Assembly: GCF_020595125.1 (NCBI RefSeq)
Contig: NZ_JACNMS010000003.1
Coordinates: 372,001-436,000 of the forward strand
Length of the DNA stretch: 64,000 bases
From: Jeotgalibacillus aurantiacus
GTDB lineage: Bacteria; Bacillota; Bacilli; Bacillales; Jeotgalibacillaceae
Reading direction: 5' to 3'
The notes under the pieces were generated by a model that saw only the letters and a list, made by a program, of their open reading frames with translations, searched no databases and was not told where the DNA came from. Below, piece after piece: positions 8,801-45,325 of this stretch (positions are counted from its first letter, which is position 1; every line of letters starts with the position of its first letter). The position numbers and the translations under genes were made by a program.

Positions 8801-8996
8801 GCTGCGATACAATTCTGTTTTGAAACGATACAAATATGTTTTGAAACAGAACAATTCAAGAGGCGAACAGTACATTTCGGTTGGCTGGAAGGGCTAGCAA
8901 TACAATTAATTTTTGGAACGATACATAAATAATCCGGAACATTACAATAAAAAGTTGAATCGATTGAATAACTTCGCAGAACAGTACATATCCTGC
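8801..8996. repeat. 21-bp-phased intergenic array 1 (TACAA motif)
   Basis: The space between two minus-strand genes holds degenerate units whose core (ATACAA, GAACAA or GTACAT) starts at 8807, 8828, 8849, 8870, then after a 30-bp step at 8900, 8921, 8942, (8963 degenerate) and 8984. The best-preserved unit is GAACGATACAAATATGTTTT. Spacing is exactly 21 bp apart from the one step. No coding gene is supported here. Confidence 0.8.
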
Positions 8997-9010
8997 AGCC
9001 TCTTTCCACA

Positions 9011-9036
9011 CAAAAAAAGAGCGGATTTCTCCACTC
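9011..9036 (-). terminator. Terminator of the small oxidase-like gene
   Basis: On the minus strand GAGTGGA pairs with TCCGCTC around a GAAA loop and is followed by seven Ts. Confidence 0.85.
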
Positions 9037-9045
9037 TCTCGCCAA

Positions 9046-9429
9046 TTAATCCTCGTGCTTCATAAACAGTGCCATATAAGCAAATAAGATAAAGCTCAGA
9101 AGCAGCGTAACGCCACCGCCAATATAAACAATAAAGTAAAACGGCTGAGGGACATTAAAAATTTCCAAAATGAAACCTGATGTCAATCCGATTGTTCCAA
9201 TGATCGCCGTATAAACATGCAGGGCAGCAACTTTAACTGAAACAGGCTTGAAAATCCGGTAATACACTGCCCAGGCAAATAAAGAAAGCCAGCCAACAAC
9301 CAGGATATGCGCATGGGCTGCGCGGAAATTATAATCATATGAACCCGCCATATGACCGCCAATCCCGGCTCCAATTGCACCAAAAATCGCTGCGGTTCTG
9401 AGCAGTAACATACTATGCTTTTTATGCAT
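9046..9429 (-). CDS. Four-helix membrane protein resembling an oxidase subunit I fragment
   Basis: A 127-residue integral membrane protein with four hydrophobic helices (about residues 8-26, 40-58, 66-88 and 97-120). The stretch FRAAHAHILVVGWLSLFAW contains paired histidines in helix 2 that resemble haem-ligand helices of haem-copper oxidase or NnrS-like proteins. It could be a small haem-binding membrane protein; function is unproven. GAGGAG lies 9 nt before the ATG, and a terminator follows directly. Confidence 0.65.
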   Translation of the reverse strand: MHKKHSMLLLRTAAIFGAIGAGIGGHMAGSYDYNFRAAHAHILVVGWLSLFAWAVYYRIFKPVSVKVAALHVYTAIIGTIGLTSGFILEIFNVPQPFYFIVYIGGGVTLLLSFILFAYMALFMKHED

Positions 9430-9467
9430 TCACTCTCGCTCCTCTTTTTAAAGCTTACTCCCTTATT

Positions 9468-10301
9468 TTAGCGGTCAGACAGATACCGTGCAAAGCATCC
9501 CTGTGACGAAAGAGGGAACGATTCGCGCAGAATCTCATCTGTTGTCATGACCGTCAGTTTCTTTAATGTCCAACCATTTAGCAGTAAAGAGAAAATGATT
9601 TCTGCTCCAATGAAATATCCGATTCTGGAATAGTCAGCTTGAGGCTGTTTCGAAAAATAATGACGCATAAGATCCTCATTTAAAATAGCATTGAAGTCTT
9701 CTTGAAAAGACCATTTACAGGAAACGCAATGTTTCACTTCCTCTTTAGACATCATTAGACCTTCTGCTAGAGTCTCGTATGTAATGCTTTGATTATAGAT
9801 CATGAGAGGCGTTAATGCGGCAAGACCTTCTGCGATCATTAAGTCGATGACGCGAAATGATGCATGTTCAGAAAGAGCATGAAATCGTACCATGTGATTG
9901 AATTCATGTGGGATCAAAACGGATAAATTGGCATTCTCCAATCTTTCCAGACCGATATAAATAAATGGACGATCGGACGGCGGGGCTGCTCCGTCACTAT
10001 GTCCAAGACCAACGAGACAGAAGATAGATGACTCATGGTGAAATTCAAAAAAGTCCTGGCACAACTGAATCATTTTCCACAGATCGACTCGTTCCAGTTT
10101 CTTTTGACCAATGGTTGCATGAACACTCATTTCCATCCAATCGATTTTCTTAATCATAGGGTAAAGCTGCTGAAGGTCCGATTGATAAAGGTATTTGAAA
10201 AGAGAGTCAAAAACAGTTGCGTACTTTTTATAGTATTTTTTCCAGTTATTGTGCTCGATCACATCTTGCTGAAAATCCTCGTATCCGTTAATGATTTTCA
10301 T
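9468..10301 (-). CDS. DUF2268-type putative zinc metalloprotease
   Basis: A 277-residue cytoplasmic protein. The HExxH-type motif HEFNHMVRFH at about residue 140 and a downstream glutamate in MIAEGLAAL are the zinc-site features of the DUF2268 family, predicted Zn-dependent proteases. There is no signal peptide. The substrate is unknown. GGAGG lies 5 nt before the ATG. A palindrome-family-A element occupies the promoter side, between this gene and the divergent S41 peptidase gene. Confidence 0.75.
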   Translation of the reverse strand: MKIINGYEDFQQDVIEHNNWKKYYKKYATVFDSLFKYLYQSDLQQLYPMIKKIDWMEMSVHATIGQKKLERVDLWKMIQLCQDFFEFHHESSIFCLVGLGHSDGAAPPSDRPFIYIGLERLENANLSVLIPHEFNHMVRFHALSEHASFRVIDLMIAEGLAALTPLMIYNQSITYETLAEGLMMSKEEVKHCVSCKWSFQEDFNAILNEDLMRHYFSKQPQADYSRIGYFIGAEIIFSLLLNGWTLKKLTVMTTDEILRESFPLSSQGCFARYLSDR

Positions 10302-10315
10302 TTAATCCTCCAAGC

Positions 10316-10367
10316 GGGGACGGAGCGGGTGTTCTTTATTACAAAAAGGAACACCCGCTCCGTCCCC
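10316..10367. repeat. Dispersed palindrome family A, copy 1
   Basis: GGGGACGGAGCGGGTGTTC (10316-10334) and its exact reverse complement (10349-10367) flank a 14-bp loop. It sits in the shared upstream region of two divergent genes, so it is not a terminator here. Confidence 0.9.
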
Positions 10368-10439
10368 CTGATTTTGATATAATAGTAAGAATAGTATGAC
10401 ATATCCATCTGTCAAAATCTAAATCATAAGGAGATTGTT

Positions 10440-11717
10440 ATGTATTTAACTATGTTTGAAGAGGTTGTAAAGGTGATGCGCCGCGATTATTCTGGGTTTC
10501 TGGATAAGCAGGGGTGGGATCATCCGGATGTATATAAAGATAAAGTTAATGCGCTTGATCCTGAGTTACCGGAATCGCGGTCTGAGTTTGTGAGGCTGGT
10601 AAAGGATTATTTGCTGGATTTCAGGGATAGGCATGTTTCGTTTATTGCTACTGATCAGCAGGGGGCTCAACCTGAGTGGCCGGGGTTTAAAGTGAGAAGA
10701 CATCAGGCGTTTTTATACATAACAGAGTCAGAGGATGCGAGATTTAATAGAGGGGATAAAATCATCTCACTGGATGGTAAAAGCATTCCTGAGGCAGAAA
10801 AAGTGTATGCGAGACTGCTTTATCAGGAGAAAGAAGTGAGGCAGGACTGGAATCTGGTCATGAATGAAGTTGATGAAGTGGTGGTTGAAAACCATTTAGG
10901 TGAAAAGGATATTTATCCGGTTAAAACACAAAGGAAGCCGGTGTATGTACCTGAGTATTCCTCGAAGGAAATTGCACCCGGTATACATCTGATTAAACTG
11001 ACGGATTTCGGGAATCCGGATGCCGTTTATAATCTATTCAAAGAACATGAAGAGCAATATAAAGTCGCTCGTGCGCTGATCTTTGACGTTCGGATCAATT
11101 ATGGAGGCAGTGATGCGAGCTACTATCCTTTTATTCCTTTTGTTTTCGGTCAGAAGGAGGTAGATCCTTTTGAAATAAGTCCTGAGATGCTGTTCAATTG
11201 TACGGATGCGACCGCTGAACGACAGTTGAAGGAATTAAGGCAGGGTCTTGAAGTCATTGAGGAAAAAGAGACGCGAAAGATCCTGGAATTTCTTGAACAG
11301 CAATGGCAGGAGAAAAAAGGTAGTGGATTTCAGCGCTTTCCATTTGAAGAAGTGATGCCAATGCAAAAGCTTAGCGGCTATCAAAAACCTGAGCAGGTGT
11401 TTGTTTTATCCGACATCTGTTGTGGAAGCTCGGGTGATTCCTTTGTGGAAACGAGTAAATGGTCAGAAAAAGTAACCGTGATTGGTCGCTCGACAATGGG
11501 TATTAACGATTACAGCAATGTGACGTCAATCGATCTTGGAAACGGATTTGTGCTCGGGTATCCAACCTCCAAACTCGTGTATGAAAATCCGGAACATTAT
11601 CAGACCGGACGAGGGATCGAACCTCATGTTTACGTTGAATGGACGCCGGAGCATTTGGAGAGAGATGTAGATTTAGAGATGGTTTTGGATAGAGTGAAAA
11701 GCAAGGCCCGGTCATAA
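10440..11717 (+). CDS. S41-family (C-terminal processing-like) peptidase homologue
   Basis: A 425-residue protein without a signal peptide. A PDZ-like segment (GDKIISLDGKSIPEAEKVY) precedes an S41-type catalytic fold with VRINYGGSDASYY and VLSDICCGSSGDSFVE, where CGSSGDSF supplies the nucleophile serine region. The C-terminal STMGINDYSNV and YQTGRGIEPHVYV stretches match tail-specific proteases. Absence of an export signal suggests a cytoplasmic role, substrate unknown. AAGGAG lies 6 nt before the ATG; the gene stands alone and ends on its own terminator. Confidence 0.75.
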   Translation: MYLTMFEEVVKVMRRDYSGFLDKQGWDHPDVYKDKVNALDPELPESRSEFVRLVKDYLLDFRDRHVSFIATDQQGAQPEWPGFKVRRHQAFLYITESEDARFNRGDKIISLDGKSIPEAEKVYARLLYQEKEVRQDWNLVMNEVDEVVVENHLGEKDIYPVKTQRKPVYVPEYSSKEIAPGIHLIKLTDFGNPDAVYNLFKEHEEQYKVARALIFDVRINYGGSDASYYPFIPFVFGQKEVDPFEISPEMLFNCTDATAERQLKELRQGLEVIEEKETRKILEFLEQQWQEKKGSGFQRFPFEEVMPMQKLSGYQKPEQVFVLSDICCGSSGDSFVETSKWSEKVTVIGRSTMGINDYSNVTSIDLGNGFVLGYPTSKLVYENPEHYQTGRGIEPHVYVEWTPEHLERDVDLEMVLDRVKSKARS

Positions 11718-11735
11718 CGATCGGGTCTTACTTTT
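11707..11735 (+). terminator. Terminator of the S41 peptidase gene
   Basis: CCCGGTC pairs with GATCGGG (one G-U pair), the stop codon lies in the loop, and CTTTTT follows. Confidence 0.7.
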
Positions 11736-11826
11736 TGGATTTAATTTTACACTAAGTAATCAGCTGGCGAATAAAGAATTTAGACATCAAGAGTGCGTTT
11801 GCTTATTTGTGTGAATCGAATGGTTG

Positions 11827-12003
11827 TTTCTGTTGTTACGTTGTTTATTTCTGTTGCTAAGGGAGTTTTATTTGTCATATGACTTTTCTCCAAGACTCAA
11901 ATTGTTGATAACTCAGCCAGTTATTTTAATAGACGTTTCGTTTCTGTCGCAAGGAAGGTTACTTATGTCGCAAAGCAGTTTGTTTCTGTTGATGAGGAGA
12001 GTG
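11827..12003. repeat. 21-bp-phased intergenic array 2 (TTTCTGTTG motif)
   Basis: Units with core TTTCTGTTG or TTTCTGTCG start at 11827, 11848, 11869 (weak), then after 30 bp at 11899 (weak), 11920 (weak), 11941, 11962 and 11983. The rest of the 459-bp gap (11718-12176) holds the upstream gene's terminator and the leader of the next gene; I see nothing else in it. Confidence 0.75.
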
Positions 12004-12176
12004 ATGTCTAGCTCTTTATCTTTTTAAAAAACACCTGCCTTTTCACGCCATTTGCACTATCTGCCCGAATTAATGCTTTTTTCCTGACTTTTAAAAAGAG
12101 TGATCCATCAAAAAAACTGTCCCGTTTTCCCCACGTGATGTTTTTTAAGTCCTTTTGAAAGGAGGTGAAAGACAGC

Positions 12177-13391
12177 GTGCGTAAATGGGTAGTAACATTT
12201 TCGATGATGACTGGATTATTGATGGTTCCAGGTGCTGCTTCTGCTGAAGGACTGTTGTCGTCTGTGACGAATAGTTTGAGCGGCCAGGAGGAACAGTCTG
12301 AAGAGCAAAAAGAGACGTCTTCTTTGCTCGGTGACACGGTTTCTTCTGTCGTTGAAACGGTTGATGAAACAGTGGATCCAGTCGTGAAAACAGTGGAGGA
12401 AACGCTGCCTGATGTAAAGGTGGATGCCGGTGTGGCTGAAGTGGATACATCAGAAGGAATCAATGTAGAAACTCCTGTGGCGGATGCTTCTGTTTCTTCG
12501 GATGAGGGTATTGGTGTTGAAACCTCTGTAGCTGACGTAAATGTCTCGGCTGAAGAGGGAGTAAGTGTCGATAGCTCAGTAGCAGATGCTTCTGTATCTA
12601 CTGATCTCGAATTGAAGGCAGAAACACCAGTTGCAGATGCCAATGTTTCATTAGTTGAGGGAGTGGAAGTTGATACTTCTATTGCTGACGCGAGCGTTTC
12701 ACTCGATGAAGGTGTGAAGGTTGAAACGCCTGTTGCAGATGCAGACGTATCGCTAAATGAGGGGATCGAAGTGTCGACTCCTGTAGCTGATGCAACTGTA
12801 TCTGTAGAAGACAACATTGAGATTGAAACACCTGTAGCAGACGTGGAGGTAGTTGAGGAATCTCCTGCTGAAGCCACCCCTGCAGAGGAAACAGCAGCTC
12901 CTGTCATCCAAAATGAAACTGAGAGCAACACTTTTAAAGAAGAAAACAAATCCGATAACAATGAACAAAACATAACACCGGAAGTGGAAACTGAGCCTGT
13001 GCAAGCTGCATCAGCGCCAGTTGAACGGCCAGCTGTGACGGATACAGGTTTCACAGACGATAGTGATGTCGTTTTTGAGCCTGCGACACAGCAGGAAAAC
13101 GATGATGTGCGTTCAGAAAACCCTGATCAATCTTCAAACTTTACGATGCCGAAAGAGGCAACCGTAACAGCTTCCCCAACATTTAGCGGGGGTGGAGCTT
13201 CTTCCGGTCCTGCAAATGCAGTGGGAGGATCAGCAACGGCTGTAGCTGGCGTATTGTTTGACCAGACGTTCGTCATAGAGCAAGTGCAGATATCTGCCTA
13301 TTCAAGTGAACGTTTGTTGTTTGATCAATGGCTGAACGCGCCGCCGTCTCAACCACCGAAATCTTCTTCTTTTTTCGCTAATAGCATTTAA
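12177..13391 (+). CDS. Secreted acidic protein with 17-residue repeats
   Basis: A 404-residue exported protein. The start is GTG at 12177: AAGGAGGTG ends 9 nt before it. A signal peptide (RKWVVTFSMMTGLLMVPGAASA) ends in a signal-peptidase site. About residues 95-230 hold eight degenerate 17-residue repeats of the type VETPVADASVSLDEGVK. A low-complexity acidic linker and a short C-terminal region (SATAVAGVLFDQTFVIEQVQ) follow. No LPXTG, SLH or LysM anchor is visible. The next gene encodes another secreted acidic repeat protein, 31 bp downstream, so they are likely an operon. Family unknown; a surface or matrix role is only inference. Confidence 0.7.
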   Translation: MRKWVVTFSMMTGLLMVPGAASAEGLLSSVTNSLSGQEEQSEEQKETSSLLGDTVSSVVETVDETVDPVVKTVEETLPDVKVDAGVAEVDTSEGINVETPVADASVSSDEGIGVETSVADVNVSAEEGVSVDSSVADASVSTDLELKAETPVADANVSLVEGVEVDTSIADASVSLDEGVKVETPVADADVSLNEGIEVSTPVADATVSVEDNIEIETPVADVEVVEESPAEATPAEETAAPVIQNETESNTFKEENKSDNNEQNITPEVETEPVQAASAPVERPAVTDTGFTDDSDVVFEPATQQENDDVRSENPDQSSNFTMPKEATVTASPTFSGGGASSGPANAVGGSATAVAGVLFDQTFVIEQVQISAYSSERLLFDQWLNAPPSQPPKSSSFFANSI

Positions 13392-13422
13392 AAAAACGAA
13401 AAAAGAAGGAGAGAATATAATC

Positions 13423-15243
13423 ATGAAAAATACAGTTAAAGCATTTACAATCGCAGGAACCGTGGCATTTGGACTTTTAGTTGGAGGTCAGGCTGGACAG
13501 GCTGAAGACCGTGATGGCCTTTTAGGAGGCGATCTGCTTGATGATATCTCGATCATCGAATCTGAAGATGGCTCTGGTTCTCTATCCATTTTAAATGATC
13601 TTGGTCTGACAGGATCTGCAGATGAAGAAAACGAGGAAGTCAATGCAGGAGGAACAGCTGAAACAGACGTGAACCTTGACGCTGAAGGCTCCGGCGAGGA
13701 TGAAAATGTCTCATCAGATGCAGACGTTTCAAACGATGTAAATACAGATGTAACTGTAAATGAAGACGAAGTACAAGCTAACGCAGATGCACAAACAGAC
13801 GCATCAGTAGGCGTAACAGCTGAAGGTGAAGAAGAAAGTGCAGAAGTGATGGCGGACGCTTCAAACGATGTAAACACAGACGTAGTGGTAAACGAAGATG
13901 AAGTACAAGCTAATGCAGACGCACAGACAGACGCATCAGTAGGCGTAACAGCTGAGGGTGAAGAAGAAAGTGCAGAAGTAATGGCGGACGCTTCAAACGA
14001 TGTGAACACAGACGTAGTGGTAAATGAAGATGAAGTAGCAGCTAACGCAGATGCACAAACAGACGCATCAGTAGGCGTAACAGCTGAAGGTGAAGAAGAA
14101 AGTGCAGAAGTGATGGCGGACGCTTCAAACGATGTAAACACAGACGTAGTGGTAAACGAAGATGAAGTACAAGCTAATGCAGACGCACAGACAGACGCAT
14201 CAGTAGGCGTAACAGCTGAGGGTGAAGAAGAAAGTGCAGAAGTGATGGCAGATGCTTCAAACGATGTGAACACAGATGTAGTCGTAAACGAAGATGAAGT
14301 AGCAGCTAATGCAGATGCACAAACAGACGCATCACTTGGCCTGAAAGCTGAAGGTGAAGAAGAAAGTGCAGAAGTAATGGCGGACGCTTCAAATGATGTG
14401 AACACAGACGTAGTGGTAAATGAAGATGAAGTAGCAGCTAACGCAGATGCACAAACAGACGCATCACTTGGTCTAACAGCTGAGGGTGAAGAAGAAAGTG
14501 CAGAAGTAATGGCGGACGCTTCAAACGATGTGAACACAGACGTAGTGGTAAACGAAGATGAAGTAGCAGCTAATGCAGATGCACAGACAGACGCATCACT
14601 TGGTCTAGCAGCTGAGGGTGAAGAAGAAAGTGCGGAAGTAATGGCGGATGCTTCAAATGATCTGAATTCAGATTTCGTTGTAAATGAAGACGAAGTAAAA
14701 GCAAATGTTTCTAACGATACAACTGCAGGTTTTGGTGTGAAAGCTGAAGATGAAGAAAGCAGCTCTTTCCTTGGCGGAGAACTTTTCAACAACCTTGATG
14801 GTGCTTTTGAGTCAAATGATGACATGACATCAGGTTCATTAGATGCTGTAACTGGTGGAACAATTGGTGCAGGATTTGAAGATGAAGATTCAAAAACTGG
14901 ACTAAATGGTATTCTGGTTAACGATCTGTCTGGTTCTTTCGTAAGTGAAGAGGATGAAGATTTCATGTCTTCTCTTTCAAATGACACAAACCTTGGTCTG
15001 AATCTTACAAACGAAGATGAAGAAGATCGCTCTTCTTTATTTGCTGATGTAACGAATGCATTTGATCTTGGTCTATCTGAAGATGAGTTTGGTGTTGCTA
15101 CTGATCTTGGTGTAGCAACAGGACTTTCATCTGAAGATGATGACAATTCATTTGCATCAAATCTTGATCTTGGCCTTGGTTTAAACCTGATGCTTGTTGA
15201 TGAAAACAACAACCACAACGGTTCATTCCTGAGCCTACGATAA
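13423..15243 (+). CDS. Secreted, highly acidic protein with near-identical 44-residue repeats
   Basis: A 606-residue exported protein. The signal peptide MKNTVKAFTIAGTVAFGLLV ends near GQAGQA-ED. Residues 105-412 are seven almost identical 44-residue repeats (core NTDVVVNEDEV, QTDASVGVTAEGEEE, SAEVMADASND) followed by one decayed copy. The C-terminal third is rich in Asp, Glu, Ser and Gly with LGLNL-like motifs. The composition gives a very low pI and would favour cation or water binding; no enzyme fold, anchor or sorting motif is seen. It follows the 17-residue-repeat gene by 31 bp and ends on a strong terminator. Function unknown. Confidence 0.75.
   Translation: MKNTVKAFTIAGTVAFGLLVGGQAGQAEDRDGLLGGDLLDDISIIESEDGSGSLSILNDLGLTGSADEENEEVNAGGTAETDVNLDAEGSGEDENVSSDADVSNDVNTDVTVNEDEVQANADAQTDASVGVTAEGEEESAEVMADASNDVNTDVVVNEDEVQANADAQTDASVGVTAEGEEESAEVMADASNDVNTDVVVNEDEVAANADAQTDASVGVTAEGEEESAEVMADASNDVNTDVVVNEDEVQANADAQTDASVGVTAEGEEESAEVMADASNDVNTDVVVNEDEVAANADAQTDASLGLKAEGEEESAEVMADASNDVNTDVVVNEDEVAANADAQTDASLGLTAEGEEESAEVMADASNDVNTDVVVNEDEVAANADAQTDASLGLAAEGEEESAEVMADASNDLNSDFVVNEDEVKANVSNDTTAGFGVKAEDEESSSFLGGELFNNLDGAFESNDDMTSGSLDAVTGGTIGAGFEDEDSKTGLNGILVNDLSGSFVSEEDEDFMSSLSNDTNLGLNLTNEDEEDRSSLFADVTNAFDLGLSEDEFGVATDLGVATGLSSEDDDNSFASNLDLGLGLNLMLVDENNNHNGSFLSLR
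13735..14658 (+). repeat. Seven tandem 132-bp coding repeats
   Basis: Seven 132-bp units (44 codons each) run in frame, with a decayed eighth copy from 14659. Units differ mainly by synonymous changes and by V/L, Q/A and T/K/A substitutions, and units 2 and 4 share one variant pattern, as expected after recombination between copies. Copy number is likely to vary between strains. Confidence 0.9.
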
Positions 15244-15251
15244 GAAAAGTG

Positions 15252-15282
15252 ACCGGACTTCCTGAGGGAGGTCCGGTTTTTT
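15252..15282 (+). terminator. Terminator of the acidic repeat operon
   Basis: ACCGGAC-TTCC pairs with GGA-GTCCGGT around a short loop and is followed by six Ts. Confidence 0.85.
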
Positions 15283-15297
15283 AGGTTTAAAGGAATC

Positions 15298-15353
15298 TGG
15301 GGGACGGAGCGGGTGTTCATTTCCGGCAAAATGAACACCCGCTCCGTCCCCCA
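15298..15353. repeat. Dispersed palindrome family A, copy 2
   Basis: Arms of 23 bp, from TGGGGGACGGAGCGGGTG through TTCAT and its complement, flank a 10-bp loop. It lies between two convergent terminators, in a convergent gene pair. Confidence 0.9.
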
Positions 15354-20103: not shown

Positions 20104-20699
20104 TTCGGATTGTACTGGCGGAAGACCAAACGATGCTGCTTGGCGCGCTTGGTTCTCTGCTCGATTTAGAGGAGGATCTGCAGGTGGTCGGGAAAGCGAA
20201 AAATGGGGAAGAAGCCATTGAGATGGTTCGTTCGCTTCAGCCTGACGTCTGTATCATGGATATTGAAATGCCGTTAAAAACTGGACTTGATGCGGCTGAA
20301 GAGCTAAAGGATGAGCCGTGTAAAATCATCATTCTGACGACATTTGCCCGTCCGGGATATTTTGAACGGGCACGCAATGCAGGTGTCAGCGGGTATTTGC
20401 TGAAGGACAGTCCGAGTGAGGAGCTCGCGCGTTCGATCCGGACGATTATGGAAGGACGCAGAATTTATGCGCCGGAGCTCGTTGATATGGCGCTGACTGA
20501 ACCGAATCCGCTGACGGAGCGGGAGCAGGAGGTCATGGAGCTGATTGCTGAGGGTAAAACGACGAAGGAAATTGCGGGCACATTGTTTATTACGAATGGA
20601 ACGGTGCGGAATTATATTTCGGTGATCCTCGATAAGCTTGAGGTGTCGAACCGGATTGAAGCGATTTCGCGTTTTCGTGAGAAGGGCTGGTTTAAGTAG
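20100..20699 (+). CDS. desR: Response regulator DesR (NarL/LuxR family)
   Basis: A 199-residue regulator. The receiver domain (1-120) has acidic residues in LAEDQ, the phospho-acceptor aspartate in VCIMDIEMP (about residue 54) and a lysine in LLKDS. The C-terminal LuxR-type helix-turn-helix is LTEREQEVMELIAEGKTTKE through NGTVRNYISVIL. Phosphorylated by DesK in the cold, it activates des. AAGGAGG lies 8 nt before the start and the gene overlaps desK by 4 bp, so the two are translationally coupled. Confidence 0.95.
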   Translation: MIRIVLAEDQTMLLGALGSLLDLEEDLQVVGKAKNGEEAIEMVRSLQPDVCIMDIEMPLKTGLDAAEELKDEPCKIIILTTFARPGYFERARNAGVSGYLLKDSPSEELARSIRTIMEGRRIYAPELVDMALTEPNPLTEREQEVMELIAEGKTTKEIAGTLFITNGTVRNYISVILDKLEVSNRIEAISRFREKGWFK

Positions 20700-20764
20700 A
20701 CGTCTCTGTGAGGGGGCGTTTTTCTTTTAATCCAAAATCGCGCCGGGATCATCCTCCGCTCGCG

Positions 20765-20945
20765 GCCGGGGGTTCGAAGGATTTTAGTCGGGGTTCGCGG
20801 GATTTTGATGTTGTTTCGAAAGATTTGGTGTGTGGTTCGTGAGATTTTCGAGAAGGTTCGCAGGGTTTCGATCATGTTTCGTAAAATAAGGTCATTTGAC
20901 TTATCCGGATTAGGTTCGTTTCACAATTCCAATCGGGATTTTAGA
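20765..20945. repeat. 21-bp-phased intergenic array 3 (TTCG...GATTTT motif)
   Basis: Six consecutive units have their TTCG core at 20773, 20794, 20815, 20836, 20857 and 20878, exactly 21 bp apart, most followed after 2-3 bases by GATTT. Further degenerate copies lie at about 20915 and 20930. A typical unit is GGTTCGCGGGATTTTGATG. The array fills most of the 397-bp gap between desR and cydD; the rest is the cydD promoter region. Confidence 0.85.
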
Positions 20946-26867: not shown

Positions 26868-27014
26868 ATGCGAGAAGAAGTGGGGAAATGTGTACGCTGC
26901 GGGAAAACGGTGTATTGTGAAAATGGATTTTTAAATGGCGTAACAGAGGGGAACAAGCTATATTGTATAGGATGTGGTGAAGGTGCTGAAATGAATAAAA
27001 CGTCTTCACGATAA
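26868..27014 (+). CDS. 48-residue zinc-ribbon protein
   Basis: A short gene with a good ribosome site (AAAGGGG) 7 nt upstream. The product carries CVRCGKTVYC and, after 15 residues, CIGC, i.e. two CxxC knuckles plus an extra cysteine, a zinc-ribbon layout. It starts 12 bp after the helicase stop and is probably co-transcribed with it. Similar small ribbon proteins bind DNA, RNA or partner proteins; nothing more specific can be said. Confidence 0.7.
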   Translation: MREEVGKCVRCGKTVYCENGFLNGVTEGNKLYCIGCGEGAEMNKTSSR

Positions 27015-27137
27015 AAAAATATGAAGTATCAGAAGAAAGCTGTGAATGCACCTAGTGGTGTGTTCGCAGCTATTTTAATGGAGAATAGGCGGTATGGAGA
27101 CTGGTGATCAGGATGAATGAGCCTGCGGTGATTCAAG

Positions 27138-27345
27138 ATTCCTTCACAACCTTGAATGATTTCTTCTTTTCAGATTTTAATTCCTTCTTTCTGGAAAAAC
27201 ATTCGATCGTTTGAAAAATTAATTCTATCACTAGGTCCACTCGAGCAGCTTTTTCCTTCAAACACGGGTTGGATTCCATCACTTCTCAACCACAATTCCC
27301 TCACTTCACAGCTTGATTCCATCAAACCTCCACCACTTCCTGAAA
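27138..27345. repeat. 21-bp-phased intergenic array 4 (ATTCCATCA motif)
   Basis: Cores close to ATTCCATCA start at 27138, 27159, 27180, 27201, 27222, then after 30 bp at 27252, 27273, 27295 (one 22-bp step) and 27316, with a trace near 27336. The array lies between convergent genes. The rest of 27015-27483 holds a minus-strand terminator and nothing else I recognise. Confidence 0.85.
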
Positions 27346-27361
27346 AGACCTGTCCAACACC

Positions 27362-27390
27362 AAAAAGGCCCTGTCATTTAAGACAAGACC
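27362..27390 (-). terminator. Terminator of the aldehyde dehydrogenase gene
   Basis: On the minus strand GGTCTTGTC pairs fully, with two G-U pairs, with GACAGGGCC around a TTAAAT loop; five Ts follow. Confidence 0.75.
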
Positions 27391-27483
27391 CTTTCCAAAA
27401 ACATCACCAGCTCAATGCTCTTGACTAACCCAAGAAACAAGCCTCATCCCGTAACAGCACTGGTTCACAAAACACCAGTCACC

Positions 27484-32027: not shown

Positions 32028-33731
32028 ATGAAATGGTATCGTAATTTGTCGATTGGCGGAAAGTATTCGGTAGCAGTTCTGTCAGCGGTTTTACTATTTG
32101 TTGTAACGGCAGTCGTTTTATTTGTCCAGATGAAAGGCATCGAAGAAGATACAGCAGCAATGGACCGGCGCAGTGAACGGGCAGTAACAGCTGTTTATCT
32201 TGGAGGGATATTCAGAGCAATGGATGTCCGGGTCGCGGATTATGTGAACTCGGGAGATAATTCCTACATAGAGGAATATCAGGAAGAGAGCACAACTTTT
32301 GATTCGTATGCTGCTTCTGTACTGGAAACGACAACAAATGAAAACCAGTCGGCCATTTTAAATGACGTGATTGGAAGTAAGGAACAAATGGATCTCAACT
32401 TTGAAAACGAGATTATTCCTAATTACACAGGTGAAGCGAATCCTGCTTTAGATGCTGCCCGGGAAACTTCACAGCAGCTGAGAGCTTCTGTTACAGGAAG
32501 TCTGGAAGAGCTTGCAGGCATGGTCATTGCAGATAGCACAGTTGCGTCTGAAAGCGCGAAATCTTCTGTTGCCACAGGAATAACAGTGATGCTGGCAGCA
32601 GTTGGACTATCTATTCTTATCAGTCTTACGCTGCTTATGCTAATCACCCGCCATGTAAAAAGAAATCTGAAGAGTGCAGTTGTCATGGCAGAAGAGATTG
32701 CAAATGGAAACCTTGCTGTTGAGGATATTGCTTATCAAAGCAAAGATGAAGTGGGGCAATTAGGCATTGCTTTTAATACGATGAAAGCCAAGCTGCATGT
32801 TCTGCTTTCTCAGGCTACAGGAGTCGCAGGAACTGTGACAGATCAGAGTGAAATGCTGAATCAGTATTCTTCTGAAGTGCAGGAAGGAAGTCATCAGATT
32901 GCCACGACGATGGAGGAGATGTCGAGCGGTGCTGAAGAACAGGCTCATGCAGCATCAGGGCTTGCTGAAAAGATGAACGAGTTTATCTCTGTTATTAACC
33001 GAGTGGAACTCAGTCAGCTGGAAGTGAAGGAGAGCTCTGTTTCAATGCTTGGTATTACCAGTAAGGGTAGCGAAGCAATGACGGAGTCTGTCGGTCAAAT
33101 GTCGGAAATTGATCAAAAAATGAGAGATTCCCTTGGCATGGTTAAAGGGCTGGATGAAAAAACAGATGATATTGCAAAATTGACTGAAGTCATTCAGCAA
33201 ATTGCGGATCAAACAAACCTTCTAGCGCTTAATGCTGCGATTGAAGCAGCGCGTGCAGGTGAACATGGAAAAGGATTCGCGGTTGTTGCGGATGAAGTGA
33301 GAAAGCTTGCTGAAGGAGTGGCCCAATCCATTTCCGATATAACATCCATCGTCAGCGGAATCCAGAGTGAAGCGAAAAATGTAGTATTGTCGCTTGAGGA
33401 AGGGTATCAGATGGTTTCAGACGGGACTGAAAAAATCTCCTATACAGGAGAACTTTTCGGGGAGTTGAAATTGACCATTGCCAACGTAACCGACCAGGTG
33501 GCCAATATGTCAGATTCTATTACAACAGTGATTGAATCGACAAAAGAAATGAATTCTTCAATTGAAAGCATAGCCTCTGTTTCCGAGGAATCTGCAGCGG
33601 GTGTTGAAGAGGTTTCAGCCACATCCCAGCAGTCCAGTGCCTCAATGGAGGAAGTCTCGAGGAGTGCTAAATCCTTAAAAGATGAAGCAGTGGAATTAAG
33701 CACGTTACTCGGTCAATTTAAATTAGCTTAA
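32028..33731 (+). CDS. Membrane methyl-accepting chemotaxis protein
   Basis: A 567-residue chemoreceptor. Membrane helices at about residues 12-32 and 180-205 flank a four-helix-bundle sensor of about 145 residues. A HAMP domain (about 206-260) is followed by the coiled-coil signalling domain with tip [20 protein letters not shown] and [11 protein letters not shown]. It would relay an extracellular signal to CheA. The start is 32028, with AAAGGGTGG 6 nt upstream. It stands alone and ends on a strong terminator. Ligand unknown. Confidence 0.92.
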
Positions 33732-33869: not shown

Positions 33870-34346
33870 ATGGGTGAATGGACAAAAGGAATTGAAATAA
33901 AAGCACCGATCGATTTTGTCTGGAAGTACTTTGATGGCTCAGTAAAAGATATGAAAAAAATCATGCCGCAGGTCGTCGAGCATGTTGAGGTTAAAAAGAC
34001 GGAAGAGGGCACGGGGTCAGTATACAGACAGAAATATAAAGAGGGTAAGCGGGTCATGGAGTATGATGTTGAAACACTTAATTATGAAGATGGTGAAGAT
34101 AAAAAGGTTTTAAAGGTCGGCTTCACACTCGGATCATTATTTGATATTACCGCTTTATACGAATTAATCAAAATTGATGATGAGACGACATACTTCCGCT
34201 ATACGACAACCAATGAACCGTTGAAATGGTATGTGAGAATGTTCCTTTTATTTGCGTCGGACCGTTCCGTGAGCAAGTTCACACAGCGTGTTAAATTCGT
34301 GGCAGAAGAGGAATATGGGGATTCTAAAGCGGAGGCGGGCGTTTAG
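33870..34346 (+). CDS. SRPBCC-fold protein with a repeat-derived C-terminus
   Basis: A 158-residue protein of the SRPBCC (polyketide cyclase/START-like) fold: IEIKAPIDFVWKYF opens the fold, and VYRQKYKEGKRVMEYDVETL and TYFRYTTTNEPLKWY form later strands. Such proteins bind hydrophobic ligands; this one's is unknown. The start is 33870, with GGGGTGA 6 nt upstream. The last six codons (KAEAGV) and the stop lie inside a family C repeat at 34326-34470, so the natural end has probably been replaced by the repeat insertion. Confidence 0.75.
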   Translation: MGEWTKGIEIKAPIDFVWKYFDGSVKDMKKIMPQVVEHVEVKKTEEGTGSVYRQKYKEGKRVMEYDVETLNYEDGEDKKVLKVGFTLGSLFDITALYELIKIDDETTYFRYTTTNEPLKWYVRMFLLFASDRSVSKFTQRVKFVAEEEYGDSKAEAGV

Positions 34347-34470
34347 GGACGTACAAACTGGACTGGCCACGACCGAGATAAAGGAAACACGGCTGAGTAA
34401 GCTGATGTTGACTTATCGGACGAGGGGAAGGGAAGTTTGCTAGTCCCTTCCCGAAGTAGCTGGACAACGG
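34326..34470 (-). repeat. Dispersed structured repeat family C, long subtype
   Basis: The reverse complement of this 145-bp stretch aligns with the unit at 60630-60781: it shares the CTAAACGCCCGCCTCCGCTTT end, CCAGTTTGTACGTCCC, GTGTTTCCTTTATCT, GATAAGTCAACATC and AGCAAACTTCCC. It overlaps the last 21 bp of the SRPBCC gene and supplies its stop codon. Confidence 0.9.
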
Positions 34471-34593
34471 AAAGGAACGGTCTGGCACGTTAGATAAAAT
34501 CAACATCTTTGCATCATGATTTTTTCATGGTGCTTTTTCGTGTCGAAAAACAAATAGGGCTGTATTTATTTATGCAGATTTTTACTCGTCCAG

Positions 34594-38861: not shown

Positions 38862-38865
38862 AAAG

Positions 38866-38894
38866 AAGGACAGCCGGGTCGGATGGCTGTCCTT
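38866..38894 (+). terminator. Terminator of the glutamate dehydrogenase-like gene
   Basis: AAGGACAGCC pairs with GGCTGTCCTT around a 9-nt loop and is followed by TTAAA. Confidence 0.8.
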
Positions 38895-38984
38895 TAAACG
38901 TTGGGTTTGAAAAGTCCTTTACTTTTCAAGGTATATGAAAGGGGAAACAGATATTACAGGCTTACCAATCCTGTAAAAGACAAA

Positions 38985-40262: not shown

Positions 40263-40595
40263 TCTTTCGACTCCTTTTTCTTGGTATTTTGTGAACAACT
40301 TTATCCTATCAAAGGTTTAAACATTTGGTTATCGGGAAAATTCTGATGCTTTTTTAGACAGGGAAGCGCACTTTTTGATAGATATAACCTCCTAATGGGT
40401 GTTTAAAATTGAATATTCTGTAAATAATAGATCTTTTATGATACGACAGGGCGGTCATTTTACATGGAGCCCCGAAAAAATTTTGGGAAAAATGGCGAAC
40501 ATTCTATTAAAACAACTAATTTCCAAGAATAAATAATTTGATAAGTAAATAAATGGTACAATAATAGTCAGGTAAACATGTTAGGAGAGATAAAA
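40263..40595. other. Divergent intergenic region with no gene
   Basis: This 333-bp AT-rich gap separates the divergent protease and S66 peptidase genes. A plausible -10 (TACAAT) lies near 40557 for the S66 gene, but no strong -35 or named operator is seen for either gene. Confidence 0.5.
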
Positions 40596-41609: not shown

Positions 41610-41616
41610 AGGTGGT

Positions 41617-42126
41617 ATGAGTTTGTTACATCAAAACAGACCCGTTGTCTCTATTAAACAATCATTAGGGGAAAAGCTGTTCAGTGCTGTATCGATTGCC
41701 TGTTTATTACTGGCTGTAGGATACTTGATATTGTCCTGGAAGGAGCTTCCTGAACAGGTTCCCCTTCATTTCAATGCATCTGGTGAGGCTGACCGATACG
41801 GTTCGAAAGCCACGGTGGTTATTCTTCCGGTTTTGGGGTTATTGATATGGGGAGGACTGACAGCGTTAGAGAGGGTTCCACATACATACAATTATCTGGT
41901 GAAAATCACTGAAGAAAATGCAGACAAGCAGTATCGGATCGGCGTATGGATGATCAACGTCACCAAAAATCTTTCCGTGCTATTATTTGCTTATTTGATT
42001 TATGAAACAGTCATGATGGGTAAACAGGAATCAGAGCAGTTGACAGCCGGCATTTTACCGGCTTTTCTGATTCTGATTTTCGGCACACTTGCCTGGGCCA
42101 TTTTTCGAATGGTGAAAAATAAGTAA
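41617..42126 (+). CDS. DUF1648-domain membrane protein
   Basis: A 169-residue membrane protein with helices at about residues 20-38, 60-77, 112-130 and 142-160. LPEQVPLHFNASGEADRYGSK after helix 1 is the DUF1648 signature, shared with SdpI-type immunity proteins. It starts 7 bp after the S66 peptidase stop and is followed by a very small membrane ORF. Function unknown. Confidence 0.8.
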   Translation: MSLLHQNRPVVSIKQSLGEKLFSAVSIACLLLAVGYLILSWKELPEQVPLHFNASGEADRYGSKATVVILPVLGLLIWGGLTALERVPHTYNYLVKITEENADKQYRIGVWMINVTKNLSVLLFAYLIYETVMMGKQESEQLTAGILPAFLILIFGTLAWAIFRMVKNK

Positions 42127-42135
42127 AAGGAGGCG

Positions 42136-42246
42136 TTGAAGCTGTTTTTCGGTGGAAGTGCAGTTCCTGATGGTTTTTACGTTATCGCTGGAATATTAAT
42201 GATTTTGTTTATGGTGCTTGTTTATCATTGGACAGATACAGATTAA
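42136..42246 (+). CDS. Possible 34-36-residue single-helix membrane peptide
   Basis: A short ORF directly after the DUF1648 gene encodes one strong hydrophobic helix (GFYVIAGILMILFMVLVYHW) between a polar start and an acidic tail. AAAGGAGG is present, but only 2 nt before the TTG; a CTG at 42142 would be better spaced. It ends just before the operon terminator. Plausible but unproven. Confidence 0.5.
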   Translation: MKLFFGGSAVPDGFYVIAGILMILFMVLVYHWTDTD

Positions 42247-42250
42247 AAAA

Positions 42251-42290
42251 GCAGGAGTCAGCTCTTAATTGGAGTTGCTCCTGTTTTTTG
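42251..42290 (+). terminator. Terminator of the S66/DUF1648 operon
   Basis: CAGGAG with an inner imperfect stem pairs with CTCCTG, followed by six Ts. Confidence 0.75.
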
Positions 42291-42399
42291 TATAAAGAGA
42301 GGTTATACAACGGTCTTTGTGGTTTTGTATGCAAAATTCTTCAGGGATGAAGTCTGTCCCTTATGAGTAAGCAGTGCTAATTGATATTCCATACAAAAA

Positions 42400-42511
42400 G
42401 TGCAGGGTCATTCCGTAGACTCCTGCGGCAGAGAAGCGACAGGTGAGACAGATGTGCGTAGCACAGCTGGCTCACCGCGCGGCCGCGGAAAGCGAAGGAA
42501 TGACCCTGCAC
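42400..42511. repeat. Dispersed palindrome family B, long form, copy 2
   Basis: GTGCAGGGTCATTCC (42400-42414) and GGAATGACCCTGCAC (42497-42511) are exact complements. They enclose an 82-bp GC-rich insert that includes CGTAGACTCCTGCGGC, ACAGGTGAGAC, GGCTCACCGCGC and GCGGAAAGCGAAG. From memory the insert resembles a widespread Bacillaceae intergenic repeat. It lies just downstream of the minus-strand cyclophilin gene. Confidence 0.88.
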
Positions 42512-42543
42512 GGTTTTAAATAGACAGTTTACTGAAAAAGAGT

Positions 42544-42978
42544 TTACCCGTTAACTCGGATTTCGTTGATGCCTGCGCCTTGCTCCATTGTTTGAGCATG
42601 CTCAAGTCCTTCTGTTACTTTACCGAATACAGTGTGAACGCCGTCAAGGTGCGGCTGTGATTCGTGAACGATGAAGAACTGGCTGCCGCCTGTGTCCTTA
42701 CCGGCATGCGCCATTGACAGTGAACCTGGCACGTGACGGTGCGGGTTGCCTTCTGTTTCACACTTGATTGTGTATCCAGGGCCGCCTGTACCATTTTTAT
42801 TCGGGCATCCTCCCTGGCTTACGAAGCCCGGAATCACACGGTGGAAATTAAGTCCATCGTAAAAGCCCTCGTTTGCTAATTTTTCGAAGTTCGCAACTGT
42901 ACCAGGTGCTTCTTCCGGATATAGTTCAAATGAAATTTTCTGTCCATTCGTTAAATCAATGTAACCAGTCTTTGCCAT
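42544..42978 (-). CDS. ppiB: Peptidyl-prolyl cis-trans isomerase, cyclophilin type
   Basis: A 144-residue cytoplasmic cyclophilin. The active-site elements are [35 protein letters not shown] and [11 protein letters not shown], including the catalytic Arg and Phe residues. It accelerates proline isomerisation during folding. Length matches Bacillus PpiB. The start is 42978, with AAGGGAGTG upstream; an ATG at 42987 lies inside that region. It is monocistronic; the family B palindrome beyond its stop is the only nearby hairpin. Confidence 0.94.
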
Positions 42979-43138
42979 TGTGAGCACTCCCTTATTCTAA
43001 ATGTTTAACCAGTTTTCATCTTACCATGATCTCCAAAAAGAAGAAAAGAAAGACCCTTTATGGATGAAATAACCTCTGCGTTTTCTCGTGCTGATTTAAG
43101 GGAAATTGTATGGAAATATGATCCATAGGAGGGTTCGG

Positions 43139-44059
43139 ATGGTTGAACAGACACTTCGTATGTTTTTTACAACACTTGCTTACAATAAACCACTTATAAA
43201 AACGGCAAGAAAAGCGGGTATGGACCTAGGTGGATCTTATTTCGTAGGAGGAGAATATACAGATGAAATGATTAGTCAGGTAAAAGAGTTGAACGAAAAA
43301 GGAATTGGAGTGACCATTGACTGTCTTGGTGAATTTGTTAAAACAGAAGAAGACACTGCCTATTATGTGGACAATGCGATCGCTGCCATTCACGCGATTC
43401 GTGATCATCATCTGCATGGACAGATTTCACTGAAGCTCTATTCGGTTGGACTTGAATTAGATCGGGAGCTCACCGTGCAAAATATGAAGAATATTTTGAA
43501 TGAAGCTTCGGGCTGTGATGTATTTGTCACGATCAATATGGAAGAATATAAAAACTGTGAGGCGATTGTTTCGATATTTGAAGAGCTGAGATCTCATTAT
43601 GAGAATATCGGTCTTGCGCTTCAGGCGAATTTATTCCGGACAGAGCAGGATTTAAAAAGACTTCATTCCTTGTCCCCAGCGATCCGCTTTGTTAAAGGGG
43701 CTTATAAGGAATCAGAAGATGTTGATATGAATGATAAAAGTCATGTTGATGAAAATTATAAAAAGCTCGTCAAACAGCATCTGCTGAACGGATTTTACAC
43801 GCAGGCTGCAACACATGACAATGACATGATTGATTTTGTCAAACAGGTTGTAAAGGAATACCGTATTCCTCCTGATCAGTACGAGTTTCAAATGCTTCAG
43901 GGTATAAGAGACAAAAAGCAGGAAGAACTGGCGGCAGAGGGTCATAAAATGGTCGTATATGTACCTTTCGGCAAGGACTGGTATACGTATTTCATGAAAA
44001 GACTGGCAGAGCGCCCGGCCAATATCGGCTTCACCGTCATGTCTATGTTCAGACGATAG
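43139..44059 (+). CDS. putB: Proline dehydrogenase
   Basis: A 306-residue FAD enzyme of the monofunctional PutB/FadM type, which oxidises proline to pyrroline-5-carboxylate at the membrane face. Typical segments are GVTIDCLGEFV, VTINMEEYK, LALQANLFRTEQDL, RFVKGAYKE, ATHDNDMIDFV and FQMLQGIRDKKQEELAAEGH. The start is 43139, with AGGAGG 6 nt upstream. No P5C dehydrogenase gene adjoins, so the second step is encoded elsewhere. Confidence 0.92.
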   Translation: MVEQTLRMFFTTLAYNKPLIKTARKAGMDLGGSYFVGGEYTDEMISQVKELNEKGIGVTIDCLGEFVKTEEDTAYYVDNAIAAIHAIRDHHLHGQISLKLYSVGLELDRELTVQNMKNILNEASGCDVFVTINMEEYKNCEAIVSIFEELRSHYENIGLALQANLFRTEQDLKRLHSLSPAIRFVKGAYKESEDVDMNDKSHVDENYKKLVKQHLLNGFYTQAATHDNDMIDFVKQVVKEYRIPPDQYEFQMLQGIRDKKQEELAAEGHKMVVYVPFGKDWYTYFMKRLAERPANIGFTVMSMFRR

Positions 44060-44117
44060 AATAGAATCATTCAAAACAGGACATCCTGCTAAAGAAAATG
44101 GCAGGAGGTTCAGTATA

Positions 44118-44666
44118 ATGACAAAATATACAGCGGGTCTTATTTTAAGTGGGATTTTCGTCTTTATCGGCGGCTGTCAAATGAATATGGAGCAGGCAAT
44201 GCCGGTATTAAGTGAAAAATCTGTTGAGTCAAAATTGTTAAATGCAGATGGTCAATCAGTAGGTACAGCAATATTAAAGGAAACATCAGAAGGAGTTTCG
44301 ATTCATTTACAGGCTAAAAATCTTGAGCCGGGTGAAAAAGCGGTTCATATCCATGAAAAGGGAAGCTGTGTTCCGCCTGACTTTGAATCAGCGGGCGGAC
44401 ATTTTAATCCGGAGAAAAAGCAGCATGGTTTTAATAATCCAAAAGGTTTTCATGCAGGTGATCTGCCGAATCTTGAAGTAGATGCAGATGGAACCATTAA
44501 CCTCAGTTTGAAGGTTAAAGCTGTCACGCTTGAAAAAGGAAGTCCACATTCACTTCTTGATGAGGATGGGAGTGCGATCGTGATTCATGAACGGGCAGAT
44601 GATTACGAAACGGATCCGGCCGGAAATGCAGGAAAAAGGATCGTCTGTGGTGAGATTAAGGGGTAG
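44118..44666 (+). CDS. sodC: Cu/Zn superoxide dismutase-family lipoprotein
   Basis: A 182-residue extracytoplasmic lipoprotein: the signal peptide ends in FIGGC, the cysteine at about residue 21. The SodC fold is marked by VHIHEKGSC, GGHFNP, KQHGFNN, HAGDLPN, IVIHERADDY and GNAGKRIVCGEI. All metal-ligand positions seem occupied: His residues for copper (two in HIH, one in GGH, one in IVIH) and His/Asp for zinc (QHG, FHAGD). As I recall, the B. subtilis relative YojM lacks copper ligands, so this version may be an active enzyme. AGGAGG lies upstream; a weak terminator follows. Confidence 0.88.
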   Translation: MTKYTAGLILSGIFVFIGGCQMNMEQAMPVLSEKSVESKLLNADGQSVGTAILKETSEGVSIHLQAKNLEPGEKAVHIHEKGSCVPPDFESAGGHFNPEKKQHGFNNPKGFHAGDLPNLEVDADGTINLSLKVKAVTLEKGSPHSLLDEDGSAIVIHERADDYETDPAGNAGKRIVCGEIKG

Positions 44667-44675
44667 TATCAGAAG

Positions 44676-44711
44676 AGCTGTTCAGGTAATAGAGCTGAAT
44701 GGCTTTTTTTA
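44676..44711 (+). terminator. Terminator of the SodC-like gene
   Basis: AGCTGTTCAG pairs with CTGAATGGCT using two G-U pairs, followed by seven Ts. Confidence 0.7.
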
Positions 44712-44831
44712 ATGGGTTTGCTGGAGTAATCGTGTGTTGATTCTTTTTTTGTTGCCGCGATTTTTGTTGTATTAAGAGATTAATCGCTACCGCGGAAGGT
44801 ATATGGGGTGGCGACTTTGGTTTGCAGGTGT

Positions 44832-45325
44832 GGAGTAGTTCATAAGTCACTGAACTAACGAATTTTCGCCGTACCTCACAAACTCGCCGCCTAAGCTGAC
44901 GAACTTCGCGTCTAACCTGACGAACTGCCTGCATGAACTCACGAATTCATCGGATAAGCTCACAAACCTGTCCGCGAACCTCTAATGTGTTGGCGGATTC
45001 TGTCTCGTGGTGTGAGGAGTAGTCCATAAGTCACTGAATTGGCGAATTCTCGTGGGACCTCACAAACCCGCCGCCTAAGCTGACGAACTTCGCGTCTAAC
45101 CTGACGAACTGCCTGCATGAACTCACGAATTCATCGGATAAGCTCACAAACCTGTCCGCGAACCTCTAATGTGTTGGCGGTTTCTGTTTCGTGGTGTGAG
45201 GAGTAGTCCATAAGTCACTGAACTGACGAATTCTCGTGGGACCTCACAAACCCGCCGCCTAAGCTGACGAACTTCGCGTCCAACCTGACGAACTCCGCGC
45301 ATGAGCTCACGAATTCCGCCGTTAA
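44832..45325. repeat. 21-bp-phased intergenic array 5 in three 184-bp higher-order copies
   Basis: Cores such as CTGACGAACT or CTCACAAAC start at 44855, 44875, 44896, 44917, 44938, 44959 and 44980 (one 20-bp then 21-bp steps). The whole block, with the spacer GAGTAGTCCATAAGTCAC, recurs 184 bp later twice: CTCACAAAC is at 44875, 45059 and 45243. Copies 1 and 2 are nearly identical; copy 3 diverges at its end. It fills most of the 725-bp gap between the SodC-like gene and the sucrose regulator gene. Confidence 0.9.

Follow-up and report, generated by a model that had tools for sequence, protein, structure and literature searches.

The 64,000-nucleotide stretch of the Jeotgalibacillus aurantiacus genome analysed here (hereafter the window) carries, in the gaps between its genes, five arrays of short direct repeats whose cores recur mostly every 21 bp (Table 1). 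In what follows G000 is the genome of the window, G004 a sister genome, G005–G009 and G011 other Jeotgalibacillus genomes, and L numbers are fetched loci. G000 is close to Jeotgalibacillus sp. R-1-5s-1, with 95% identity in one ABC-transporter protein (L065). An earlier note on this DNA had placed arrays in these five gaps and described each as a single run of 6–10 units in one uniform 21-bp phase. All five are present: a scan with fixed patterns taken from the core families described below, and so partly derived from the same five arrays, scored them at 11–50 against a maximum of 8.3 in eight block-shuffled windows, array 2 (family B) being the weakest at 11.2. Array 5 proved to be three family E arrays within a 184-bp tandem repeat. 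The phase is not uniform: families A, B and D each contain one interval of 30 or 31 bp, family D also contains one of 22 bp, and family E opens with one of 20 bp. A stricter scan recovered eight sites in array 1, missing one slot, and eight in array 4, which lies in a convergent gap; the layout of array 1 is identical in the three other family A arrays drawn (L024). Minor extra chains barely exceeded their own limits: three D-like sites at 33076–33130 (9.0 versus 8.3), array 3 when read as G-like, and two F-like sites standing singly.

Table 1. Arrays, leader boxes and a relic-like unit in the window (window positions; intervals in bp)
Feature	Position	Strand	Description
Array 1	8802..8989	+	Family A, core GAACRRTACAA, class 2; 9 slots, intervals 21,21,21,30,21,21,21,21
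Array 2	11828..11995	-	Family B, core CTAWCRACARAA on the minus strand, class 2, some sites decayed; 42,21,21,30,21,21
Array 3	20771..20889	+	Family C, core GGTTCG..GGATTT; six sites at 21 bp, sixth weak
Array 4	27137..27327	+	Family D, core GATTCCHTCWYTT, class 2; 9 slots, 21,21,21,21,30,21,22,21
Leader box of first E array	44836..44851	+	TAGTTCATAAGTCACT; same kind of box precedes most E arrays elsewhere
Array 5a	44854..44968	+	Family E, core CTSACRAAY, class 1; six sites, 20,21,21,21,21
Leader box of second E array	45020..45035	+	TAGTCCATAAGTCACT
Array 5b	45038..45152	+	Family E; six sites, 20,21,21,21,21
Leader box of third E array	45204..45219	+	TAGTCCATAAGTCACT
Array 5c	45222..45315	+	Family E; five recognisable sites, 20,21,21,21
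Single relic-like D unit	15290..15297	.	AAGGAATC; G004 has a D array at the matching place (L107:1095-1206)

The 21-bp period extends over the genome. The autocorrelation at lag 21 that the earlier note had proposed as a check was run on intergenic DNA (lags 5–69, z from 20 dinucleotide shuffles) and gave an excess over shuffled DNA in both samples: the highest z fell at lag 21 in the window (0.284 versus 0.263 shuffled, z 5.8, 36 gaps) and in a 400-kb systematic sample of the genome (0.290 versus 0.264, z 19.7, 200 gaps), where the next lag reached z 9.9. Lag 10 was outside the 14 highest-z lags in window and sample alike. Local peaks in noncoding DNA among lags 15–30 numbered 36 at lag 21, one at lag 22 and none at the remaining lags, and a looser threshold yielded 50 arrays in 464 kb, 44 of them noncoding and six inside genes.

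Two side observations concern the arrays as annotated or copied DNA. Open reading frames (ORFs) of 87–120 aa overlap four of the window arrays, at 8683-9045 (-), 20612-20875 (-), 27156-27428 (+) and 44656-44934 (-), and could receive a hypothetical-protein annotation. Tandem triplication of entire arrays, with a period of about 184–251 bp, is seen at L009:8604-9260, L009:15681-16300, L014:17744-18400, L011:18144-18693 and window 44828-45316.

Core families, layouts and leader box

The earlier note had given every array a core of its own. The cores instead group into families scattered over the genome (for example 26 copies of B and 36 matches of E, the window array itself included), and within a family the layout is nearly constant wherever sites were drawn. 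Sites were located by fixed family patterns; fitted motif models drifted (A into B, G into E). Class 1 has six sites 21 bp apart, and class 2 has seven to nine sites including one 30/31-bp interval. Family A shows nine slots (21,21,21,30,21,21,21,21) in 4/4 arrays drawn and family D nine slots, with one interval of 30 and one of 22, in 7/7. The 30 or 31 interval of family B is found in 13/13 regions, six of which have a 5+3 layout (21,21,21,21,30/31,21,21, some with a slot missing), the others gaining, losing or shifting end slots. Families C, E and F have mostly six sites at 20–21 bp among the arrays drawn, some having four or five; for family E six sites were counted in 24 of 29 rows, or 22 of 26 without the duplicated locus L008. 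Family G is weak.

Conservation within family B follows the sites. The copies known from the scanned loci number 26 (25 in G000, one in G004; the decayed window copy excluded). They were found with the 5+3 layout imposed and each tandem copy counted separately, and 23 of them are under 80% identity. Cores carry about 1–1.6 bits, linkers mostly 0.1–0.3 bits and positions beyond the outermost sites about 0. Among the 23, the long interval is 30 bp in 18 and 31 bp in five. Adjacent B intervals of at most 70 bp (n = 90) measure 21, 30, 31, 42, 51 or 63 bp in 79 cases, which is close to whole helical turns (two to six), and 18, 24, 25, 59 or 60 bp in the other 11. A site on the opposite strand within 150 bp was found for 0/195 intergenic A, D, E, F and G sites and for 5/143 B sites; the loose C pattern, with such a partner at 61 of 256 sites, is not informative here. 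Sites within one array share one polarity. Together with the 79 of 90 intervals near whole turns, this common polarity supports the earlier proposal that the cores lie on one face of the DNA, and the accompanying observation that the period is kept and the sequence is not takes a stronger form, in that arrays with different cores share site number and interval pattern.

A leader box is shared across several of these families. The box TAGGTCAAATTACACT stands directly 5′ of site 1 in family H, the main class-1 family of G007 (39 copies aligned); most E arrays of G000 and G004, as well as the three of the window, have it or a variant such as TAGTCCATAAGTCACT, and two G arrays have similar boxes. 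Searched in degenerate form through 397 genomes of the order, the box matched 6/12 Jeotgalibacillus genomes (36 places) and 8/385 others, and the reversed control also matched eight of these 385, so that 8/385 is the chance level there. The degenerate pattern had no match in G000, which like the window carries the variant instead. Nineteen of the 36 Jeotgalibacillus places were viewed, and all 19 precede a 21-bp array (one interrupted by Ns), compared with 0/8 in other genera. The cores behind the leader vary by clade (CTSACRAAY, TTCTAMGAAC, ACGTCGAAC, ATCTCCTGAAC and AAGTGGCGAAC), with GAAC or a near form mostly retained. In L225 (G011:C15, ~130.9 kb) two core types alternate within one six-site array behind the same leader, which may illustrate a route of core change.

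Both layouts recur in another Jeotgalibacillus species with other cores. The main class-1 core of G007 (family H) is TTCTAMGAAC, and its two-unit pattern occurs at 117 places in G007, 57 in G009, 54 in G006, 10 in G008, five in G011 and none in G000 (reversed pattern, 0–1); exactly six sites are present in 40 of 47 arrays of the fetched loci (25/27 in G007, 15/20 in G009). A class-2 family of G007 with the core GGTCACNTC, which is TGACCYGAAATTT read on the other strand, is represented in the sample by four arrays, of which three have intervals 21,21,21,30/31,21,21,21 and the fourth differs slightly, and a TTGAGTGC array of the same genome reads 21,21,21,31,21. For 11 orthologous G007/G009 pairs, drawn from loci fetched for carrying arrays, identity was 0.877 in cores (660 positions) and 0.673 in linkers (605 positions), against 0.756 and 0.405 in a random-pair control, and the flanking DNA was 86.5% identical.

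Closer to the window, arrays 3, 4 and 5 are present at orthologous places in G004, whose contig begins at about window 13.9 kb, the comparison thus covering arrays 3–5. In the gap of array 3, G004 retains the orthologous array, G005 has a weaker 21-bp array (0.48) with the other core GCTTCGAT, and the nine remaining same-genus genomes have no array. The three-unit pattern of family B occurs in 2/12 Jeotgalibacillus genomes. At 15290..15297, where the window has a lone D unit and G004 a D array, the array may have been lost in the window genome or gained in G004. Beside array 4, comparison of window 26980-27138 with L107:12806-13727 showed about 900 bp extra in G004 between the helicase gene and the array, which by eye looks coding.

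Beyond the genus, 21-bp arrays with other cores were recognised by eye in several genomes: those of G021 and Salipaludibacillus keqinensis have six units, and those of G002, G019 and further Salipaludibacillus are looser. CGAA repeated five times at 21 bp occurs in 93/299 genomes (47/116 genera), compared with 41/299 for the reversed control, coding repeats feeding both figures. Of 30 loci of this pattern viewed in other genera, seven look coding; the other 23 comprise 17 with 5–8 units (exactly six in seven of them) and six with 10–17, their cores being genus-specific. We infer that these arrays belong to the same system as those of Jeotgalibacillus.

Gap type, orientation and chromosome position

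Arrays avoid divergent gaps: among G000 gaps of at least 100 bp they occupy 10/33 convergent, 17/139 tandem and 2/53 divergent ones. Of the 37 family H arrays whose neighbours on either side were called, 31 lie behind a gene of the same orientation ('++' 19, '+-' 12; '--' 4, '-+' 2), and a T6 run lies within 100 bp upstream of 27/47 H arrays, where 2.3 were expected; H arrays look as if positioned behind terminators. A and B arrays are mostly antisense to the flanking genes (A 3/3, B 7/11 tandem cases, three of the remaining four B cases coming from one locus). The sequence AGCGG, the Chi site of Bacillus, was not among the top k-mers of array flanks, where T-runs dominate upstream.

The composition of the strands changes at the arrays as well. 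Keto skew flips at H arrays, the upstream side being GT-rich (+0.18 to +0.35) and the downstream side rich in AC (-0.25 to -0.53). The flip is present in each of the four gap classes, of which two are small; control gaps, array-bearing ones included, lie at -0.10 to +0.02. The skew decays within roughly 150 bp on the upstream side and 70 bp on the downstream side, and the flanks of E arrays show +0.30/-0.15. The flip may reflect mutation on single strands exposed by polymerases stalling on either side of a bound array.

Two Jeotgalibacillus genomes have few arrays near the replication terminus. The 3.52-Mb contig of G007 (3,516 kb) begins 1.6 kb ahead of a dnaA domain, and the exact two-unit H places among the matches listed (n = 21) lie at 34–1057 and 2479–3331 kb of 3,516 kb, 19 of them in the origin half (binomial P ~1e-4); lag-21 arrays in the sample number 19 in the origin half and 0 in the terminus half, from 50 kb and 31 kb of noncoding DNA, respectively. 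In G000, the count is 0 for the eight interior stretches of contig C2, among them two that correspond to 1.5 and 1.7 Mb of G007, and 56 for the other 604 kb sampled; about eight would be expected in the interior stretches by noncoding length if clustering is ignored. The second G007 contig (603 kb) gave one array in 100 kb sampled, and in G204 and G179 array positions, among the matches listed, look spread out. A strict rule of replication orientation was rejected, as 19/27 G007 array places among the matches listed point with the replication fork. One stretch of the G000 sample, L267 (G000:C1:900001-920000), has 12.3 of its 20 kb called noncoding, perhaps ribosomal RNA genes.

A candidate docking array and its alternatives

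We read each array as the docking site of a candidate sequence-specific protein that would form a fixed-size head-to-tail oligomer along one helix face between transcription units, a reading in which our confidence is about even. A class 1 array would load six protomers, with a leader box in several families, and a class 2 array seven to nine, with about one extra helical turn mid-array; the loaded array would act between transcription units as an architectural or insulating element, mostly away from the terminus region. The precision of the intervals, to about one base, the alternatives near whole turns, the single polarity, the near-fixed site number and the conservation of cores next to freer linkers are consistent with an oligomeric protein of set size, siting between transcription units fits an insulating or architectural role, and the scarcity at the terminus in two genomes suggests a link to chromosome organisation. 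The differing cores would reflect different or rapidly changing specificities of the binding protein or proteins, and we propose that the geometry stays because the protein complex stays. A filament or chromatin protein, as the earlier note suggested, may lie on the arrays. A single polar roadblock does not suit every family, because orientation to genes differs by family.

Stated for the order, the proposal is more tentative, possible but short of probable: Bacillales may carry a class of nucleoprotein element in which geometry (about six sites at 21 bp, or seven to nine with a 30/31-bp hinge), polarity and partly the leader are inherited and the target sequence is free, which would imply widespread co-evolving phased binders marking the borders of transcription units. 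The relation between array families is missed by sequence-based annotation, as the conserved trait is spacing, number and polarity. If protein-bound, the arrays expose a chromosome-organising or insulating system in Bacillales and an example of a binding protein co-evolving with tens of sites in the genome, and their layouts supply binding probes with inherent phase controls. They would be new as an element class because layout, not sequence, defines them, a novelty that shrinks if the binder is an ordinary regulator; searches of the open-access literature, which left subscription papers largely uncovered, listed no paper describing intergenic arrays phased at 21 bp with a fixed number of sites.

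Several points weigh against the docking reading. No binding protein was found; the ParB-type and LexA-type families show no expansion (ParB_N, two copies in 11/12 genomes and three in the twelfth; LexA-type, one to three), and reading the ORFs beside an array cluster in L187, where no domain search was made, gave no obvious adjacent binder gene. Site number is less fixed outside the genus, with exactly six units in just 7/23 loci, and families C and F have no leader. Orientation to genes depends on the family, mostly sense in H and mostly antisense in A and B, and avoidance of divergent gaps could reflect plain tolerance of inserts. The flank skew is weaker in B (+0.13/-0.09) and in other genera (+0.13/-0.07; 23 of the 30 loci, the seven probably coding ones left out and L291, which has a 175-aa open frame, included). 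Two of the 21 exact H places among the matches listed (1.06 and 2.48 Mb) are in the terminus half of G007, as is a chain of four sites at 2.51 Mb overlooked by the lag scan, and 6/28 other G000 stretches are also array-free. The G007/G009 pairs, chosen as they were from array-bearing loci, are uninformative on gain and loss.

An unlikely alternative is that the arrays are non-autonomous mobile elements inserting near terminators and mobilised by a protein that reads the phased cores, clade-specific cores being separate bursts. The families are clade-restricted, as in the narrow occurrence of the B three-unit pattern, G004 has a D array where the window has a relic alone, whole arrays are tandemly repeated at several loci, and T6 runs lie upstream of H arrays. 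Family B, however, has no terminal inverted repeat or conserved flank, its dispersed copies keep their cores with linkers near random, orthologous cores are better conserved than linkers, unlike those of dead copies, and the layouts recur with different cores. The earlier note had itself named decayed copies of a transposon or satellite as the outcome that would speak against it; on checking, B was found without terminal repeats and without a phage match, E and B without a plasmid match, and the window without an Rfam match. The conserved ends of a transposon or miniature inverted-repeat transposable element were not seen, B information being about 0 outside the end sites and the H leader one-sided.

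It is improbable that the arrays act in RNA, as motifs repeated in read-through transcripts onto which, for example, Rho or a different RNA-binding ring would load. The 31 of 37 H arrays behind a co-oriented gene would suit such an element, as would the C/A-rich, G-poor DNA downstream of H arrays and the single-sequence folds of 20 H arrays (mean z -0.8 versus mononucleotide shuffles); against this, RNAalifold found 0 pairs across 29 aligned H copies, A and B are mostly antisense to their neighbours, and the 30/31 intervals suggest turns of DNA. A stem of the G-rich upstream flank with the C-rich downstream flank was rejected on the same RNAalifold result and on the equal pairing of own and swapped flanks (-37.5 versus -37.7 kcal/mol, 37 H arrays). 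A hairpin may lie within the 30-bp unit of family B, judging by eye. Rfam 15 gave 0 gathering-score matches in the window.

Functionless local satellites arising by slippage are still less probable: array 5 and several others do show recent tandem copying of whole arrays, but slippage copies linkers too, whereas here linkers vary from unit to unit and cores and layout are kept across species. Much the same low probability, if slightly lower, attaches to chromosomal decoys that would titrate plasmid or phage replication initiators. The iterons of Rep-type plasmid origins are head-to-tail sites about two turns apart on one face, with several per array and many specificities, and the arrays share with them direct repetition in helical phase; unlike iterons, they number tens per chromosome, with several families per genome and no rep gene beside those checked. 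No match to an E array was found in 72,556 plasmids, nor to B in those plasmids or 50,697 phages (E in phages and the other families were not tried), and none of 10 array-flanking window proteins, three of them without any Pfam match, has a Rep-type Pfam domain.

Coding of heptad-repeat peptides (21 bp being seven codons), or descent from decayed coiled-coil genes, is the least probable and was rejected as the main explanation because no single open frame is kept across copies: the main intervals (21, 30, 42, 51, 63) are divisible by 3, ORFs cross four window arrays, seven of the 30 pattern matches in other genera look coding and the best frame is open in 35/47 H and 23/29 E arrays (22.2 and 13.3 on pooled-base redraw of linkers), but with columns permuted among copies the H excess is gone (29 versus 26.8 of 37; 47/200 shuffles reach it) and B and E retain a slight one that related copies inflate (6 and 10 of 200 shuffles reach it), the frame is broken by 20-, 22- and 31-bp intervals, stops occur in 12/47 H and 6/29 E arrays, and the open frames of H and E are in different registers relative to GAAC. 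Annotations of Bacillaceae genomes include spurious heptad-repeat peptides, and the 21-bp arrays may be their source.

Comparison with known systems gave partial likenesses. The RacA/ram and ParB/parS sites lie in the origin region of chromosomes and are inverted repeats of one sequence; the arrays share a position away from the terminus but are direct, phased, one-way and clade-specific, with no inverted repeat. Sites of LytTR regulators are a pair of 9-bp direct repeats, spaced about 21 bp apart and located ahead of a promoter; the spacing fits, and six or more sites and the avoidance of divergent gaps do not. Clustered regularly interspaced short palindromic repeats (CRISPR) consist of spacers between near-identical repeats longer than 20 bp, accompanied by cas genes; they were rejected, as the arrays have degenerate cores of about 10 bp and the 10 flanking proteins scanned have no cas domain.

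The nearest described kind is the STAR element of Staphylococcus, a 14-bp motif in 1–7 expanding and contracting copies of unknown function, with spacers of 40–44 bp at gapR (PMC3532100). Like the arrays, STAR elements are intergenic direct repeats at many loci, with a start signature ahead of the repeats at gapR and lineage-conserved spacers; they differ in their spacing of about 40 bp or more, variable copy number and fixed motif (PMC3532100), the arrays having ~10-bp cores every 20–22 bp, a near-fixed number in Jeotgalibacillus, two layouts and clade-dependent cores. The TAACTGA direct repeats of Beggiatoaceae are likewise abundant intergenic direct repeats with strain-specific paths, formed by one heptamer in 2–6 copies in the main genome studied and mostly just before start codons (PMC4679880); the arrays have phased cores with linkers and avoid divergent gaps. 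RemA of Bacillus resembles the proposed binder in being a fixed-size protein oligomer on poorly conserved periodic repeats, wrapping DNA upstream of promoters with 7-bp protected regions at 3-bp intervals (PMC8481266). It was rejected as the binder, its period being about 10 bp (PMC8481266) and lag 10 having no prominence in the intergenic DNA of the window or the genome sample.

The window holds other repeats besides the arrays. A 606-aa open frame at 13423-15243 (+) contains 7.5 copies of a 132-bp tandem repeat at 13723-14707, and dispersed repeats at 34326-34502 and 60332-60909, in pieces of about 100–450 bp, recur at several places in G004 with 83–99% identity.

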